A DNA stretch of 64,000 bases, from the NCBI RefSeq assembly GCF_020076305.1, contig NZ_JAIQXE010000004.1, forward strand, positions 434,001-498,000, read 5' to 3'. A program made the translations under genes and the position numbers. Shown here one piece after another: positions 8,285 through 22,487 of this stretch (its first letter is position 1; every line of letters begins with the position of its first letter). This DNA is from Flavihumibacter profundi (GTDB taxonomy: Bacteria > Bacteroidota > Bacteroidia > Chitinophagales > Chitinophagaceae). The notes under the pieces are model-generated. The model ran no database searches. It was not told the origin of the DNA and saw only the letters and a program-made list of their open reading frames with translations.

Positions 8285-10837
8285 ATGTTTACAAGCCCCG
8301 TTCAGGGAAAGTTTCTGGCGGCCGCAGCATTTTTGCTCTTGCTCCAGTTTAATGGCTTCAGTCAGCAGAAACCTGCAGGCAATGCCGGTTCCGCTGAAAA
8401 ACAATCCGCTTCACCTGTCATCCCACCCACCCGGACCAACGGCCCGAAACCTTACAAAGAGGTAATAACCGCCAAGGCTGTTACCAGTATCGGCCTGTTC
8501 AAAGTGCATAAAGTGGAAGACAAATTTTATTTTGAAATTGATGATTCCCTGCTTGGCCGCGATATCCTGGTAGTGAACAGGCTCTCCAAAGCAGCCGCAG
8601 GCATGCGCAACTTCTTCTTTGGCTATGCCGGCGATTTTATCGGTGAAAACGTCATCCGTTTTGAAAAGGGGCCCAATAACAAACTCTTCATCCGCAATAT
8701 CTCTTTCGACGAAATGTCGATGGATTCCACCCTGCCGATGTACCGGGCCGTTACTAATTCCAATATCCAGAGTATCGCCCAGGCATTTGACATCGCGTCC
8801 CTGGGCAAGGATTCTTCAGGTGTAGTGGTTGACATGACATCCTTCCTGAACAGCGACAACGATATCCTCAATTTCGATCCCAATTCCAAACGTTTGTTCA
8901 AGGTAGGTTCCCTGCAAACAGATAAATCCTATATTGGTTCCATCCGCACGTTTCCCCTGAATACAGAAATTAAGACAGTAAAGACCTATACCCGTTCAGG
9001 CGGGGGCGTTTCCACTGCCCCTGTTTCGCTTTCTGCTCCTTCTGGCGGATCTTTTACCGTAGAGATAAACAGTTCCCTGCTCCTGTTACCTGTTACGCCT
9101 ATGAAAGCAAGGTATTACGATGAACGAGTTGGCTTTTTCACCCGTGAATATGTTGATTTTGATAAAAACCCCCAGGGCGTTGAAACCGTAAAAATGATTA
9201 CCCGCTGGAGGCTTGAACCAAAGCCTGAAGACCAGGAAAAATATAAGCGGGGTGAACTGGTTGAACCAGCCAAACCCATCATATTTTACATTGATCCGGC
9301 TACCCCGAAGAAATGGGTGCCCTACCTCATCCAGGGGGTGAATGACTGGCAGGCTGCCTTCGAAAAAGCCGGCTTCAAAAACGCCATCATGGCCAGGGAA
9401 GCCCCGGTAAATGACAGCACCTGGAGTATTGATGATGCCCGTTATTCCGCCATTGTTTATAAGCCTTCTGACGTGCCCAATGCCAGCGGTCCGCATGTGC
9501 ATGACCCCCGCAGCGGGGAAATCCTGGAAAGCCATATCAACTGGTACCATAACGTTATGCAGCTTTTGCGCAACTGGTATTTTGTACAGGCCTCTCCCAG
9601 CGATCCGCGTGCCCGTACTACCCGCTTCAGCGATTCCCTCATGGGAGAACTGATCAGGTTTGTGTCTTCCCATGAAGTGGGACATACCCTGGGATTGCGG
9701 CATAATTTCGGATCTTCCTCTACAGTTCCGGTGGACAAACTTCGGGATAAAGCCTGGGTGGAAGCCAATGGCCCCTCCCCTTCCATTATGGATTATGCCC
9801 GCTTTAATTACGTTGCACAACCAGAAGACCATATTGGTCCGGCAGGACTTTACCCCCGTATTGGTGATTACGATAAATGGGCCATCGAATGGGGCTACAA
9901 ATGGCTCCCGGAAGCTACTACAGCGGAAGAAGAAGTACCCGTACTGAATAAACTGACCATCAATAAACTAAAAGACAAAAGGCTTTGGTTCGGAACAGAA
10001 ACGAATCCGGATGACCCCCGTTCCCAAAGTGAAGACCTTGGCGATAACGCCATGAAAGCGAGTGCCTATGGCATTAAAAACCTGCAATGGATTTTACCGA
10101 ACCTGGTAAGCTGGACGAATGAGCCGAATAAGGATTTTGATGCCCTGAATACCTTGTACAATGAAATAGTTACCCAGTTCGGCCGGTATATAGGCCATGT
10201 CAGTAAAAATGTCGGTGGTATTACTGAAACACCTAAAACAATGGAGCAAAGCGGCCCGGTGTACGAATACGTTTCCAGGGATACCCAGAAAGAAGCGATG
10301 GGCTTCCTGGGCAAAGAGGTTTTCACCACGCCCACATGGCTGCTCGACAATACTATTTTTTCCAAAACAGGGGGCACGGCTGCTGCCGTTGTGAACCGCT
10401 TACAGGATGCTGCCCTGGGCAGGGTATTAAGTGCTTCCACACTTACTAAACTGCTGAATGCTGAAGCCGCACTCGGTAAAAAAGCCTATACGGTAAATGA
10501 CCTTACGAGCGACCTGCGCAAGGAAATTTTTACAGAACTGTCCAGTCATAAGCCAATTGATATTTACCGCCGTAACCTGCAAAAGAATTTAGTGGAAAGA
10601 CTGGTCACCATCATCAAGCCTTCCAGTCCGGCGCCACTAAGCCTGGGAACCATCACCATTAGTTTCGGGCCGTCCATCAGCAGGAACAGCGATATCATTT
10701 CATTTGCAAAAGGCACCCTAAGGTCCATCCAGGCTGAGATCCGCGCAGCATTGCCTGCCTATTCCGATACCGCTACCAAATACCACCTGCAAGACCTGAA
10801 TGAGCGGATTAGTGATGGGTTTAGTGCGAAGCAGTGA
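8285..10837 (+). CDS. exported zinc-dependent metalloprotease (DUF5117/DUF4953 type)
   Basis: This 850-residue protein begins with a clear signal peptide (MFTSPVQGKFLAAAAFLLLLQFNGFSQ). A long N-terminal beta-rich region (DUF5118/DUF5117-like, about 60-330) precedes the zinc site HEVGHTLGLRH at 463-473, a metzincin HExxHxxGxxH motif with three His ligands and the catalytic Glu. A downstream PSIMDYARFNYV gives the expected Met-turn. The family is abundant in Bacteroidota, but substrates are not known to me; it is probably periplasmic or outer-membrane associated. It is transcribed alone and ends facing the ABC permease across a shared terminator. Confidence 0.9.
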   Translation: MFTSPVQGKFLAAAAFLLLLQFNGFSQQKPAGNAGSAEKQSASPVIPPTRTNGPKPYKEVITAKAVTSIGLFKVHKVEDKFYFEIDDSLLGRDILVVNRLSKAAAGMRNFFFGYAGDFIGENVIRFEKGPNNKLFIRNISFDEMSMDSTLPMYRAVTNSNIQSIAQAFDIASLGKDSSGVVVDMTSFLNSDNDILNFDPNSKRLFKVGSLQTDKSYIGSIRTFPLNTEIKTVKTYTRSGGGVSTAPVSLSAPSGGSFTVEINSSLLLLPVTPMKARYYDERVGFFTREYVDFDKNPQGVETVKMITRWRLEPKPEDQEKYKRGELVEPAKPIIFYIDPATPKKWVPYLIQGVNDWQAAFEKAGFKNAIMAREAPVNDSTWSIDDARYSAIVYKPSDVPNASGPHVHDPRSGEILESHINWYHNVMQLLRNWYFVQASPSDPRARTTRFSDSLMGELIRFVSSHEVGHTLGLRHNFGSSSTVPVDKLRDKAWVEANGPSPSIMDYARFNYVAQPEDHIGPAGLYPRIGDYDKWAIEWGYKWLPEATTAEEEVPVLNKLTINKLKDKRLWFGTETNPDDPRSQSEDLGDNAMKASAYGIKNLQWILPNLVSWTNEPNKDFDALNTLYNEIVTQFGRYIGHVSKNVGGITETPKTMEQSGPVYEYVSRDTQKEAMGFLGKEVFTTPTWLLDNTIFSKTGGTAAAVVNRLQDAALGRVLSASTLTKLLNAEAALGKKAYTVNDLTSDLRKEIFTELSSHKPIDIYRRNLQKNLVERLVTIIKPSSPAPLSLGTITISFGPSISRNSDIISFAKGTLRSIQAEIRAALPAYSDTATKYHLQDLNERISDGFSAKQ

Positions 10838-10841
10838 GGGA

Positions 10842-10890
10842 GGTGAGCGGTGAATGGTGAATGGTGAATGGTGAATGGGGAATGGGGAAC
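10842..10890. repeat. heptamer tandem repeat (GGTGAAT)
   Basis: Seven 7-base units in register: GGTGAGC, four perfect GGTGAAT, GGGGAAT and GGGGAAC. It begins four bases after the protease stop codon. The inverse array lies at 10992-11019, so the two could pair across the terminator between them. Confidence 0.9.
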
Positions 10891-10921
10891 TCTAATTTTT
10901 TGAATATTCCAATTTTGGGTA

Positions 10922-10960
10922 AGAACAAAAATGCTACAGAATAATCTGTAGCATTTTTTA
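10922..10960. terminator. bidirectional terminator
   Basis: ATGCTACAGA (10931-10940) and TCTGTAGCAT (10945-10954) form a perfect 10-bp stem with loop ATAA. It has A-rich sequence before and a T run after, so it can stop both the plus-strand protease and the minus-strand ABC permease transcripts. Confidence 0.88.
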
Positions 10961-10991
10961 TTTCGATATATAAATTTCAAGGATTTCTCCC

Positions 10992-11019
10992 ATTCACCAT
11001 TCACCATTCACCATTCACG
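10992..11019. repeat. heptamer tandem repeat (ATTCACC), inverted to 10842-10890
   Basis: Three perfect ATTCACC units followed by ATTCACG, ending two bases before the permease stop at 11022. It is the reverse complement of the GGTGAAT array about 100 bases away, giving an inverted pair around the terminator. Confidence 0.9.
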
Positions 11020-11021
11020 CC

Positions 11022-12296
11022 TTACTCATACCGCAACGCCTCAATAGGATTAAGCCTCGAAGCTTTATAAGCTGGGTAAGATCCGGCGAGGAGGCCGACT
11101 ATGGTACAGATCAATACACCAAAGAAAACCCAAAGCCATGGAATGATAAACCCGGTACTCATAAGGGCGCTGACGATATTTCCGAGCAAAACGCCCAGGA
11201 TGATACCGATGAATGCACCCATCAGGCTGATCAGGATGGCTTCAAACAAAAACTGCCAGCGCACATTCCGTTGCTTGCCACCAATGGCTTTGATCAAGCC
11301 AACTTCCTTGGTTCTTTCGGTTACAGCTACCAGCATGATATTCATCAAACCAATTGCCGCACCCGCCAGGGTAATAAAGCCAATCACCATAGCTGATGCA
11401 GTTAACCAGCCAATCTGCTTCATGGCCAGCTCAACAAATGCATCACTTTTATCGATGAGGAAATTATTCTCTTCCTTAATTTCATTTTTCCGGATCACCC
11501 TGAATACCCCTTCGGCTTCCCCGATAGCAGTTTCAATATTAATGATACTGGCCGATTTAACACCAATGGTAAATGAGTTCGAGGCACTGCCGGCAAAAAA
11601 CCGGCGAACGCTGTTGTAAGAAGTGATGATCACATTATCGAGACTCCTTCCAAATGTAGAACCACGGCTATCCAGGACAGCGATCACCCGGAAAGGAATA
11701 TTGTTTACATTAATCATTTTTTCCAAAGGCCGCTCTGAATTGCCGGAACCAAATAACTTATCGGCCACATCTTTCCCGATCATGCAAACATTTCGCCCAG
11801 AGCTTACATCCAGTTCGTTCAGGTTCCTTCCGCTGGCAATATTGTAATTATTCAGTTCCAGGTAATTTTCGTCACCGCCATTAATCCAGACTGTAGGATT
11901 GGTCTTTTTGTTGCCGTAAGATGCCGCATTATTATTACCACCATTAAGTGATAAGCTTACTTTAGCTGGATAGGTAAATCGTTGCTTAAATGCTTCAGCC
12001 TGGTCGCGCGTGATAGGTTTATTTGTGCTTGACTGTTTAATCTTCCGGCCTTTTTTACTTTCCTTTTTCAGGTCGCCGCGGTCGAACCGGAAAGCAGCCC
12101 GGTACCGTATAGTAAAACCATTCGCGCCCATACTGGAGAAGCTTTCCATAAACTTCTGCGAAATAGCCTGGATAGCAGTATTGATGCCAATTAATGCTGC
12201 AATCCCCAAGGCAATAATAGATACGGTAATGCCCGTCCTTAATTTATTGGACCGAATCGTCCTGAACGATAAGGAGAGTGTATCAGCAATGTTCAT
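11022..12296 (-). CDS. MacB-like ABC transporter permease (FtsX family)
   Basis: A 424-residue permease with one N-terminal helix ([22 protein letters not shown]), a large periplasmic MacB_PCD-type domain (about 40-290) and a C-terminal FtsX domain with three helices (about 300-415), including the conserved [20 protein letters not shown] cytoplasmic loop. The final residues PIEALRYE are typical. MacB-type systems move lipoproteins, peptides or other substrates by mechanotransmission, with a separate ATPase; none is next to it here. I start at ATG 12296 ([20 protein letters not shown]); an in-frame start exists nine codons earlier. It lies 65 bases after nuoN and may share its transcript. Confidence 0.87.
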
Positions 12297-12361
12297 GTCG
12301 TGAAAATACGGAGAAAACAGCAAGGCTGTCTGCCATCCATCAAGTATGCGGACAAAGATTC

Positions 12362-19807: not shown

Positions 19808-20920
19808 CTACTGCTTAGCCCCTGCAAAGTCGTCTCCATGAGCCGGTCCGTCTATTTTCGACAGTTCGATCTCCGGGCGGTTTACCTCGCTGACCTTATG
19901 GATATCCATGAGCAGTTTAGGCCCCCTTCCGCCCATTACTTCGGGCAGGAAATCCTTAGGCATCTGCACTCCCACATAATGTCCCTGGGAAATAACAGAG
20001 TGCCGGTTAACTTTAGTTGGTCCGTCAATGGTCCAGTCTTTCAGGTCTTTCTTTTCGAAACGGCATTCATTGCAGATCCAGCCCGGACGGCCATCGGTAG
20101 CATCTTTAACTTCACCCCACTCGTCCTTGCGGGCGGTTACCCGGAAAACTTCATCGCCACGCATCCATAGCTGCACTTCGCCGCAACATTTGGAACAATT
20201 GCGATGGGCGTCCACCGGCTTGGTGAACCAGACCCTGTTTTTGAAACGGAAAGTTTTATCAGTGAGTGCGCCAACCGGACAAACATCGATGACATTTCCA
20301 ATGAAATCGTTGTCCAGGGACTTCTCGATATAGGTAGCAATCTCTGAGTGGTCTCCGCGGTCAAGTATGCCATGCGCACGTTTTTGGGTCAGCTGATCGG
20401 CTACGAAAACGCAACGGTAGCAAAGGATACAGCGTGTCATGTGCAGCTGGATGTATTCGCCGAGGTCATGCTTTTTGAAAGTCCTTTTCTGGAATTCGAA
20501 GCGGGTACCTTCCTTACCATGCTCATAACTGAGGTCCTGGAGATGACACTCACCGGCCTGGTCACAAATCGGGCAATCCAGCGGGTGGTTCAGCAGGAGG
20601 AATTCAGTAACGCCGGCACGGGCATCGATTACGCGCTCACTGGTGATATTTTTCACGATCATGCCATCCATCACGGTAGTGCGGCAGCTGGCGACCAGTT
20701 TGGGCATAGGGCGCGGGTCTGCGGTAGAACCGGCAGCCACTTCCACAAGGCAGGTGCGGCACTTACCGCCACTGTTCTTCAGCTTGCTGTAATAACACAT
20801 CGCAGGGGGAGCCACTTCACCACCAATTGAACGCGCTGCATTCAGGATGGTTGTTCCAGGCTCCACCTCAATAGTGATATTGTCGATGGTTACTTTAAAT
20901 AATTTTTTCTCGTCAGCCAT
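19808..20920 (-). CDS. nuoG: short NuoG, iron-sulfur part only
   Basis: A 370-residue protein homologous to the N-terminal half of NuoG. Visible are a 2Fe-2S plant-ferredoxin-like domain (CYYSKLKNSGGKCRTC with a later C), the His/Cys cluster domain (CPICDQAGECHLQDLS), and the 4Fe-4S ligands CILCYRC and CPVGAL. A second cluster-like region (CSKCC, CNEC, residues about 240-290) corresponds to the start of the molybdopterin-type 4Fe-4S domain. The large molybdopterin-fold domain of other NuoG proteins (usually 650-900 residues) is absent. The gene ends cleanly 49 bases before nuoH with no leftover reading frame, so this looks like a true short form rather than a frameshift. Confidence 0.93.
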   Translation of the reverse strand: MADEKKLFKVTIDNITIEVEPGTTILNAARSIGGEVAPPAMCYYSKLKNSGGKCRTCLVEVAAGSTADPRPMPKLVASCRTTVMDGMIVKNITSERVIDARAGVTEFLLLNHPLDCPICDQAGECHLQDLSYEHGKEGTRFEFQKRTFKKHDLGEYIQLHMTRCILCYRCVFVADQLTQKRAHGILDRGDHSEIATYIEKSLDNDFIGNVIDVCPVGALTDKTFRFKNRVWFTKPVDAHRNCSKCCGEVQLWMRGDEVFRVTARKDEWGEVKDATDGRPGWICNECRFEKKDLKDWTIDGPTKVNRHSVISQGHYVGVQMPKDFLPEVMGGRGPKLLMDIHKVSEVNRPEIELSKIDGPAHGDDFAGAKQ

Positions 20921-20930
20921 ATGTTAATTT

Positions 20931-20965
20931 TTCACGCAAAGCCGCTAAGGAGCGGAGGCGCAAAG
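20931..20965. repeat. left inverted repeat of the relic between nuoF and nuoG
   Basis: This 35-base arm begins TTCACGCAAAGCCGC. Aligned without gaps to the reverse complement of 21099-21133 it matches at 24 of 35 positions by hand count. The two arms bound the remains of a GxxExxY-family gene. Confidence 0.65.
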
Positions 20966-20966
20966 A

Positions 20967-21095
20967 TTAAAGATTATTTAGAACTCTATGGATACCATCT
21001 CTAATAAGGGGCAAATTGAAATTGATCAATAAGCCAAATTTCAAATTGGTAATTTTCAAATAAGTAATCAGCACACTCTTTTCATTTTCTACTCC
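20967..21095 (-). pseudogene. remnant of a GxxExxY-family protein gene
   Basis: On the minus strand the gap between nuoF and nuoG encodes, in one frame, a 36-codon tail ending at TAA (20967-20969). It contains TYLKITNLKFGLLINFN followed by RDGIHRVLNNL. This matches the well-conserved C-terminus of GxxExxY proteins, small proteins of about 125 residues and unknown function. No start codon or N-terminal two thirds remains. Inverted repeats bound it on both sides, so the whole 200-base segment looks like a decayed cassette left in the operon. Confidence 0.75.
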
Positions 21096-21098
21096 TCC

Positions 21099-21133
21099 AC
21101 TGCGCCCCTGCTACCCTGCGTATTTGTGTGAAA
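21099..21133. repeat. right inverted repeat of the relic between nuoF and nuoG
   Basis: Read on the minus strand this arm begins TTCACACAAATACGC and pairs imperfectly with 20931-20965. It starts two bases after the nuoF stop codon (21135-21137), so insertion or decay reached the gene end. Confidence 0.65.
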
Positions 21134-21134
21134 C

Positions 21135-22487
21135 CTACGCAGGTGTATAAATCGGATCAGCATAGTGGGCTAAACCATAATTGCGTGTCAAACATTCCTG
21201 AGGATTGTTTACATGCCATTCAAACTCGTCGCGGAAATGCCGGATGGCAGCAGCCACGGGCCATGCGGCAGCGTCACCGAGCGGGCAAATCGTATTGCCC
21301 TCGATCTTGCGCTGGATATCCCATAACAGGTCTATATCACTCATCTTTCCCTTTCCGCTTTCGATCGCTTTCAATATTTTTTCCATCCAGCCTGTCCCTT
21401 CACGGCAGGGAGAGCATTGTCCGCAGCTTTCGTGCCGGTAAAAACGGGCCAGTGTATAGGTGTTTTTCACCACGCACTGGTCTTCATCCAATACGATGAA
21501 ACCACCCGAACCCATCATGGATCCTGTTGCGAAACCGCCATCACTAAGGCTCTCATAGTTCATATACCGGGTTTCCCCTTTTGCTGTTTTAAGCAACAGG
21601 TTAGCCGGTAAAATGGGAACAGATGATCCGCCGGGAATACAGGCTTTCAGCCTTTTCCCATTGGCAATTCCGCCGCAATATTCATCACTGTAAATAAATT
21701 CTTCCACCGGGATGGTCATGTCAATTTCGTATACTCCCGGTTTGTTGATATTGCCGCAGGCAGAGATCAGTTTTGTTCCGGTTGATTTACCCACCCCGAT
21801 TTTTGCATACTCTTCACCACCCATATTAATGATAGGCACAACAGCTGCCAGGGTTTCCACATTATTCACCACTGTAGGCCGGTCCCATACCCCTTTAACC
21901 GCCGGGAATGGAGGCTTGATACGGGGATTACCGCGCTTACCTTCGAGGGATTCTATCAATGCAGTTTCTTCACCGCAGATGTATGCCCCTGCACCGCGCT
22001 GCACATAAATTTCACAATTGAACCCGGTGCCCAGGATATTGTTTCCCAGCCATCCATTGGCTTTGGCTTCGCCAATGGCATGTTCGAGTATATCAGTGAT
22101 CCAGGCATATTCCCCACGGATATATATATACGTAGCATTTGAGCCCAGTGCATAGGAAGCAACAATAAGTCCTTCAATCAGCAGGTGGGGAAGGAATTCC
22201 ATCAGGAAGCGGTCCTTGAATGTACCCGGTTCTGATTCGTCGGCATTGCAAACCAAGTGGCGCGGAACTCCTTCGGGCTTAGCCAGGAAACTCCATTTCA
22301 TACCAGTTGGGAAACCCGCACCGCCACGCCCGCGTAATCCACTCTTCTTCACTTCCTCAGTAACCGCATCCGGACTCATGGTCTTTAATGCTTTTTCGAC
22401 ACTGCGGTAACCGCCCTCGCGACGGTACACGTCGTACTGTCGGATGCCTTCTACTTTGGCTTTGTCTAATAATAATTTTACACCCAT
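21135..22487 (-). CDS. nuoF: NADH-quinone oxidoreductase subunit F
   Basis: A 450-residue subunit that binds NADH, FMN and the N3 4Fe-4S cluster. The glycine-rich GRGGAGFPTGMKW, the FMN-site CNADESEPGTFKDR and the cluster motif CGQCSPCREGTGWM with the later CPLGDAAAWP are all present. Together with NuoE it forms the electron-input end. It is followed by the GxxExxY relic, then nuoG; all nuo genes keep the same direction across the relic. Confidence 0.97.
   Translation of the reverse strand: MGVKLLLDKAKVEGIRQYDVYRREGGYRSVEKALKTMSPDAVTEEVKKSGLRGRGGAGFPTGMKWSFLAKPEGVPRHLVCNADESEPGTFKDRFLMEFLPHLLIEGLIVASYALGSNATYIYIRGEYAWITDILEHAIGEAKANGWLGNNILGTGFNCEIYVQRGAGAYICGEETALIESLEGKRGNPRIKPPFPAVKGVWDRPTVVNNVETLAAVVPIINMGGEEYAKIGVGKSTGTKLISACGNINKPGVYEIDMTIPVEEFIYSDEYCGGIANGKRLKACIPGGSSVPILPANLLLKTAKGETRYMNYESLSDGGFATGSMMGSGGFIVLDEDQCVVKNTYTLARFYRHESCGQCSPCREGTGWMEKILKAIESGKGKMSDIDLLWDIQRKIEGNTICPLGDAAAWPVAAAIRHFRDEFEWHVNNPQECLTRNYGLAHYADPIYTPA

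Follow-up and report, generated by a model that had tools for sequence, protein, structure and literature searches.

An internally deleted GxxExxY gene cassette with inverted ends in the nuoF-nuoG spacer of Flavihumibacter profundi

The closest known kinds of element to the one described here are the intervening sequences (IVS) of 23S rRNA, which are the nearest, and MITEs. In an excerpted account, the 23S rRNA IVS is a 428-nt element with an S23 open reading frame (ORF) between inverted ends and a 28-bp terminal stem, which is excised by RNase III and is patchily distributed, having been acquired horizontally and then inherited vertically (PMC4990558). In addition, arrays of the heptamers TAACTGA and GGGAATC are described in excerpts of two reports as short-unit arrays in spacers, some of them near start or stop codons (PMC4679880, PMC4692102). 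For GxxExxY genes, a literature search found no described role, and PMC8934634 contains a single passing mention. A search by titles and abstract openings found no published cassettes of the kind reported below, and the end-sequence strings led to no cassette description in the literature, the sole match concerning satellite DNA.

The present study started from a window of 64,000 nucleotides of Flavihumibacter profundi (the whole stretch of DNA analysed), in which a GxxExxY relic occupies the entire 214-bp spacer (20921-21134, minus strand) between two minus-strand respiratory-chain operon genes that we take, from their sequences, to be nuoF (upstream, 21135-22487) and nuoG (downstream, 19808-20920). 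Read along the minus strand, the nuoF stop codon is followed by 1 nt, a 5' arm (21101-21133, the more degenerate of the two), a short leader, the final 35 GxxExxY codons, a 3' arm on the nuoG side (20930-20962) and 9 nt before the nuoG start codon. The gene tail with its stop codon spans 20967-21083, including a 35-aa ORF at 20967-21074 and a profile match at 20982-21083. This tail matched positions 84-115 of 116 in TIGR04256 (E = 1.8e-6), its 28.3 bits lying under the curated 35-bit cut-off, a shortfall to be expected when only a tail is left, and it matched PF13366 (PDDEXK_3) above the cut-off of 22 (26.7 bits, E = 7.7e-6). The arms are 73% identical over 33 nt as inverted repeats; their best ungapped match (24/33) was attained in 0 of 300 dinucleotide shuffles and their gapped score of 18 in 2 of 2000 shuffles. 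The GxxExxY tail with bounding inverted repeats that the sequence-only reading had placed between nuoF and nuoG is therefore real, and it has indeed lost its middle, since everything upstream of profile position 84, including the GxxExxY, D and ExK motifs, has been deleted. Inverted ends stand at both termini of the insert, as in insertion sequences, MITEs and the GxxExxY cassettes of relatives, and the spacer is an internally deleted cassette of a GxxExxY (PD-(D/E)XK nuclease) gene.

A genome-wide search revealed the relic as the sole GxxExxY match in the F. profundi genome, intact genes being found in relatives and none within this genome. Further copies of the ends were also sought. The TTTCACGCAAAG string (at most 1 mismatch) occurred at 33 places compared with 15 for the control, and at the 19 non-relic TTTCACGCAAAG loci examined no inverted partner was convincing (best scores, 8-15). 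The CGCAAAGnCGCAAAG string had 0 matches in this genome; its highest number among the 59 genomes searched, 70 copies, was found in G046, together with four GxxExxY matches.

To characterize the ends of GxxExxY genes in relatives, the downstream flank of each gene was reverse-complemented and scored against the upstream flank of the same gene, using mismatched pairs as the reference. In the main set of 79 loci (relic included), obtained from the 35 of 59 genomes with a match (own genome included), own flanks scored above the 95th percentile at 49 loci and above the 99th at 33. Slightly different windows gave 51 and 32 of 78 usable loci (27 of 78 falling below the 95th percentile), another variant gave 48 and 33, and 700-nt flanks gave 42 and 34 (n = 78). 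By comparison, control ORFs from the same loci exceeded these percentiles in 3 and 2 of 46 cases, and the two top controls themselves resemble repeat arrays. Similar results were obtained in a second set from one genus (28 usable loci), with 20 and 12 loci above the two percentiles for 300-nt flanks, and 16 and 12 for 700-nt flanks. For named loci from a public genome collection (the best 80 of 587 confirmed, 79 usable), the numbers were 25 and 15, the mismatched pairs of this set also scoring high because subclade arms have a common consensus (by eye, about TTTAACCRCARAGnnCRCARAG). This consensus was also present in loci titled Methylobacter (L256), Planctomycetota (L203), Treponema (L192) and Pyrinomonadaceae (L242), of which L256 and L192 passed the 95th percentile and L203 and L242 did not. 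At the level of sequence, these comparisons demonstrate that such cassettes exist across the family and in other phyla, and in the loci examined such ends enclosed no gene other than GxxExxY. The proposal that intact GxxExxY genes have TTCACGCAAAG-type flanks was borne out in part, as many genes in relatives are inverted-ended, with TTCACGCAAAG being one of several end classes. At L030, the GxxExxY arms are nested in further inverted arrays with a unit of about 21 nt (CTATACGGGCTGGTTCACG type).

The ends are composed of short units, namely CGCAAAG or CACAGAG, TGTCTGAATCAGGATT, CACAGATAACACAGAT, and CACGAATTCACGAAT. Arm classes were labelled by hand at 50 of the 79 loci, leaving out loci with weak arms or unclear units, and mapping these classes on the protein tree required 8 changes (shuffled mean, 21.6; minimum of 300 shuffles, 17). 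Moreover, arm likeness rose with protein identity (rho 0.31; maximum in 500 permutations, 0.155), and in 40 of the 50 elements the two arms were more alike than either was to the arm of any other element, so that the two arms change together. As judged from the tree and the arm comparisons, end class was shown to track protein subfamily, and this pattern, together with the within-element matching, indicates that the arms are part of the element.

In the 15 genomes of the genus, this gap is occupied by a GxxExxY gene in two (G007 and G013), by the relic in G000 (F. profundi) and by a four-helix-bundle gene in G014, and it is insert-free, at 28-100 bp, in 11, so that relatives without the insert do exist. 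The gap of G014 (L117, 1846 bp) holds its gene amid long purine-rich GGTGAGACATGAAA-type repeats. Among the nuo gaps compared, that of G013 had the top score against the relic: its element is nearly intact, with an in-frame stop close to the C-terminal end and a duplicate of the 3' arm on its outer side, and the 3' end of the relic, including the nuoG-side arm, is identical to it at 71 of 83 positions. In the nuoG tree, G013 falls just outside G001, G000 and G012 (support for the four-genome group, 97/96). Based on this likeness and tree placement, the ancestor of these four genomes probably had the element, with later shrinkage in G000 and loss from G001 and G012; the relic is thus probably the orthologue of the G013 copy at the same site, independent insertions being the less likely alternative. 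G013 also harbored three gene-less hairpins of 73-79 bp with the end type of its own nuo element. No target-site duplication was readable at nuoF-nuoG, because the empty spacers are too diverged to align. The claim that GxxExxY genes move as cassettes stands in so far as many of them carry their own ends; the movement itself we infer.

Across the family, the nuoF-nuoG gap was surveyed in 115 genomes, consisting of the 15 genus genomes and 100 family genomes from the top of the match list (114 of 117 with a match; weaker matches left out), and was resolved in 105 and unresolved in 10. Of the resolved genomes, 23 have GxxExxY in the gap (counting the relic) and 11 have a four-helix-bundle (S23-like) gene, one of these being a weak match (E = 0.0034), and all 34 inserts were in the sense orientation. 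With G014 left out, the first arm begins within 10 nt of the nuoF stop codon in 23 of 33 inserts, the second finishes within 20 nt of the nuoG start codon in 28, and 16 exceeded the 95th percentile of mismatched pairs. The two genes have different array classes at this gap, and genus g108 harbored both, with GxxExxY in G198 and the four-helix bundle in G122. By arm polarity the GxxExxY inserts fall into two groups, with either CGCAAAG or CTTTGCG first, which one change on the tree separates, and the six copies of the second polarity share a single clade with two copies from elsewhere (support 97); GxxExxY reached the gap from at least two clades. Location changed 8 times on the tree compared with 18.7 after shuffling, a count that is approximate because L159, marked 'other', was later seen at nuoF-nuoG. 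In addition, G061 (157 bp) contained another relic, its 3' arm resembling that of the first (43/51), and G065 (69 bp) an arm pair without a gene (by eye). Six larger gaps (867-1149 bp) without a match hold other ORFs, which are presumably DUF559-like in G107 and aspartic-protease-like in G115. As a site where intact, relic, four-helix-bundle and gene-less states all occur, the nuoF-nuoG gap offers a natural laboratory.

Evidence for inversion was found at two other sites, where orthologous elements occur in both orientations between species. In the sister species G011 and G003, GxxExxY genes lie in opposite orientations in a spacer that we take to be purL-hldD; their proteins form a sister pair on the tree (support 97), and each element has matching arms of its own (in G003 by eye, about 600 nt out). 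In the Flavobacterium spacer presumably between plsC and trpS, L182, L194 and L195 have one orientation and L193, L198, L209 and L245 the opposite, and the flanks swap sides in 12 of 12 cross pairs. On the trpS tree, used because only 2 of the 7 loci yielded the plsC part, these orientations require two changes (starred branches, none). A similarity between L182 and L245 that was considered as limited to the element turned out to be same-site inversion. Such opposite orientations are the outcome that recombination between the arms would give.

Evidence for movement is mixed with much vertical inheritance. A Melioribacter MAG (L191) and a Flavobacterium (L211) are 73% identical over 471 nt, the similarity being limited to the gene and arms and the neighbour genes differing within the sequence compared. 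Orthologous sites account for most of the high-identity pairs listed, and 184 locus pairs have homologous flanks in the same orientation, which counts against free mobility and suggests that many GxxExxY copies were vertically inherited. Matches were present in 150 of 244 family genomes, in 7 of 72,556 plasmid records and, with one typed query, in no viral contig that could be confirmed as a relative. Mobility, which had been offered as the cause of this patchy spread, would thus explain a part of it, much of the rest being vertical inheritance and loss. In genus g108, a purine-catabolism-like operon (L162 1-520 and L161) shows gaps in which the cassette of each of two species is lacking in the other, one empty gap being a gene-less GGTGAGT hairpin, and in two species of this genus (L170 and L175) GxxExxY adjoins the same two genes on opposite sides of the pair.

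A second gene family has the same layout. TIGR02436 genes, which we take to be S23-like four-helix-bundle genes, are arranged as GxxExxY genes are, with other, mostly heptamer-like ends, and among the best 30 loci of a longer list 17 exceeded the 95th and 11 the 99th percentile in the flank comparison. In the F. profundi genome, arrays of the unit GGTGAAT gave 165 pattern matches compared with 5 for the reversed control. The 100 matches listed form 30 clusters, 12 of them two-stranded and all 12 inward-facing; among these listed matches, one inward pair surrounds the genome's only four-helix-bundle gene, and the other 11 (65-191 bp) are too short for such a gene. One gene-less pair lies within the window at 10843-11025, between convergent genes at 8285-10837 and 11022-12323; it encloses a terminator-like hairpin (10927-10959), and its unit is that at the ends of the four-helix-bundle gene. 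Together with the G013 hairpins, these arm pairs without a gene seem to be further end states of cassettes. A possible third cargo is DUF559, for which 9 of 20 loci tested (from 40 matches listed) exceeded the 95th percentile of cross pairs, although this remains only suggestive because the ends are largely self-palindromic. DUF559-like genes in the G107 nuo gap and at loci L360-L389 often lie between CCCCTCC..GGAGGGG inverted, partly self-palindromic repeats.

For the GxxExxY protein, G24, E27, Y30, D67, E77 and K79 were invariant in 66 aligned intact sequences and Q91 and Y95 nearly so, a layout that we take to be that of an active PD-(D/E)XK nuclease. The structural model was confident (pLDDT 95.9, pTM 0.88), and a PDB profile search returned one match only, at chance level (E = 0.64). 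We lean, with some confidence, towards the reading that a single-gene cassette, consisting of an arm, a GxxExxY nuclease gene and an arm, left the nuoF-nuoG spacer as its remnant, and that such cassettes colonise new spacers as DNA units and can be inverted. The nuclease may cut its own ends as a hairpin or cruciform, which would start inversion and movement; recombination between the arms would invert the element and could also keep both arms alike; and in operons only sense copies would last, because antisense copies would harm expression. A far broader proposal, for now tentative, is that GxxExxY, four-helix-bundle and perhaps DUF559 genes are carried by single-gene DNA elements that form a large superclass, as yet undescribed, in Bacteroidota and other groups. 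Each protein subfamily would cut and flip the unit-repeat ends specific to it, the elements would settle past operon stop codons and seed gene-less hairpins across the genome, and the classical 23S rRNA IVS would be their rRNA branch.

Alternatively, the insert could be an RNA-level element like the 23S rRNA IVS, with arms that pair in the operon mRNA and are excised by RNase III, making insertion harmless, and with movement via RNA. The shared architecture of the four-helix-bundle cassettes and the IVS, the 34 sense inserts in the nuo gap and the fold of the relic spacer as RNA (z -2.8; 1 of 200 shuffles as good, only suggestive) are in keeping with such an element. However, G-U-compatible arm mismatches were not in significant excess, either in an earlier count (163 to 143) or over 130 elements (122 to 101, p = 0.18), so that selection for an RNA stem gains no support and arm likeness appears to be kept at the DNA level. 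Furthermore, one divergent spacer holds elements in both orientations. Sense orientation was also dropped as proof of an RNA route: between co-oriented neighbours, GxxExxY genes are sense by 45 to 4 and four-helix-bundle genes by 20 to 3, and ordinary genes of the window are similarly biased (37 to 5), so the bias outside the nuo gap is no special signal. An RNA-level origin is consequently considered unlikely.

It is also conceivable that the inverted arrays are host sequences past stop codons, such as mRNA ends, insulators or repeat arrays, between which GxxExxY and four-helix-bundle genes settled as passengers. In line with this, gene-less arrays are far commoner than gene-bearing ones in the F. 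profundi genome, where the many GGTGAAT matches face one four-helix-bundle gene, some arrays start right after stop codons, and one surrounds the terminator-like hairpin. Nevertheless, array class follows protein subfamily on the tree, the two kinds of gene differ in array class where they occupy the same gap, and the distant hosts are alike in gene and arms only, making host arrays a quite improbable source of the ends. Finally, although many GxxExxY copies are vertically inherited, an ordinary decayed gene whose arms are chance or unrelated stem-loops is largely refuted, and has very little probability left, given the shuffle tests of the relic arms, the flank statistics, and the presence at the nuo gap of a four-helix-bundle gene and of GxxExxY from two clades whose arm polarities are opposite.

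Under the favoured cassette reading, the data suggest that small genetic elements of this kind, apparently mobile and invertible, are widespread, and relatives carry fuller versions of the cassette. Element-specific ends would provide a first testable function for GxxExxY genes and account for a class of intergenic repeats, and the parallel with four-helix-bundle cassettes may provide a route into how rRNA IVS spread. Like homing endonuclease genes, GxxExxY is a free-standing nuclease gene of patchy spread, but it lies in spacers past stop codons and between inverted arms. As in invertible DNA segments, both orientations were found at one site, although between species only and at two sites other than nuoF-nuoG, whose 34 inserts are all sense, and no recombinase or promoter switch was identified. 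The heptamer arrays (TAACTGA, GGGAATC) resemble the cassette ends as short-unit arrays in spacers, whereas in the excerpts of PMC4679880 and PMC4692102 they are not tied to gene-holding cassettes. Insertion sequences and MITEs share inverted ends, internal deletion derivatives and gene-less copies with the cassettes, which in contrast have no transposase gene, showed no readable target-site duplication and have end sequences that vary between protein subfamilies and even between orthologues. The 23S rRNA IVS, in its excerpted account, likewise has one small ORF between inverted terminal repeats and a patchy spread. Unlike it, the cassettes lie in the spacers of mRNA operons, as the relic does between nuoF and nuoG, instead of in rRNA; they carry a PD-(D/E)XK nuclease gene between arms that are unit repeats of several classes; and they are inverted between species, with no RNA-pairing signal in their arm mismatches.
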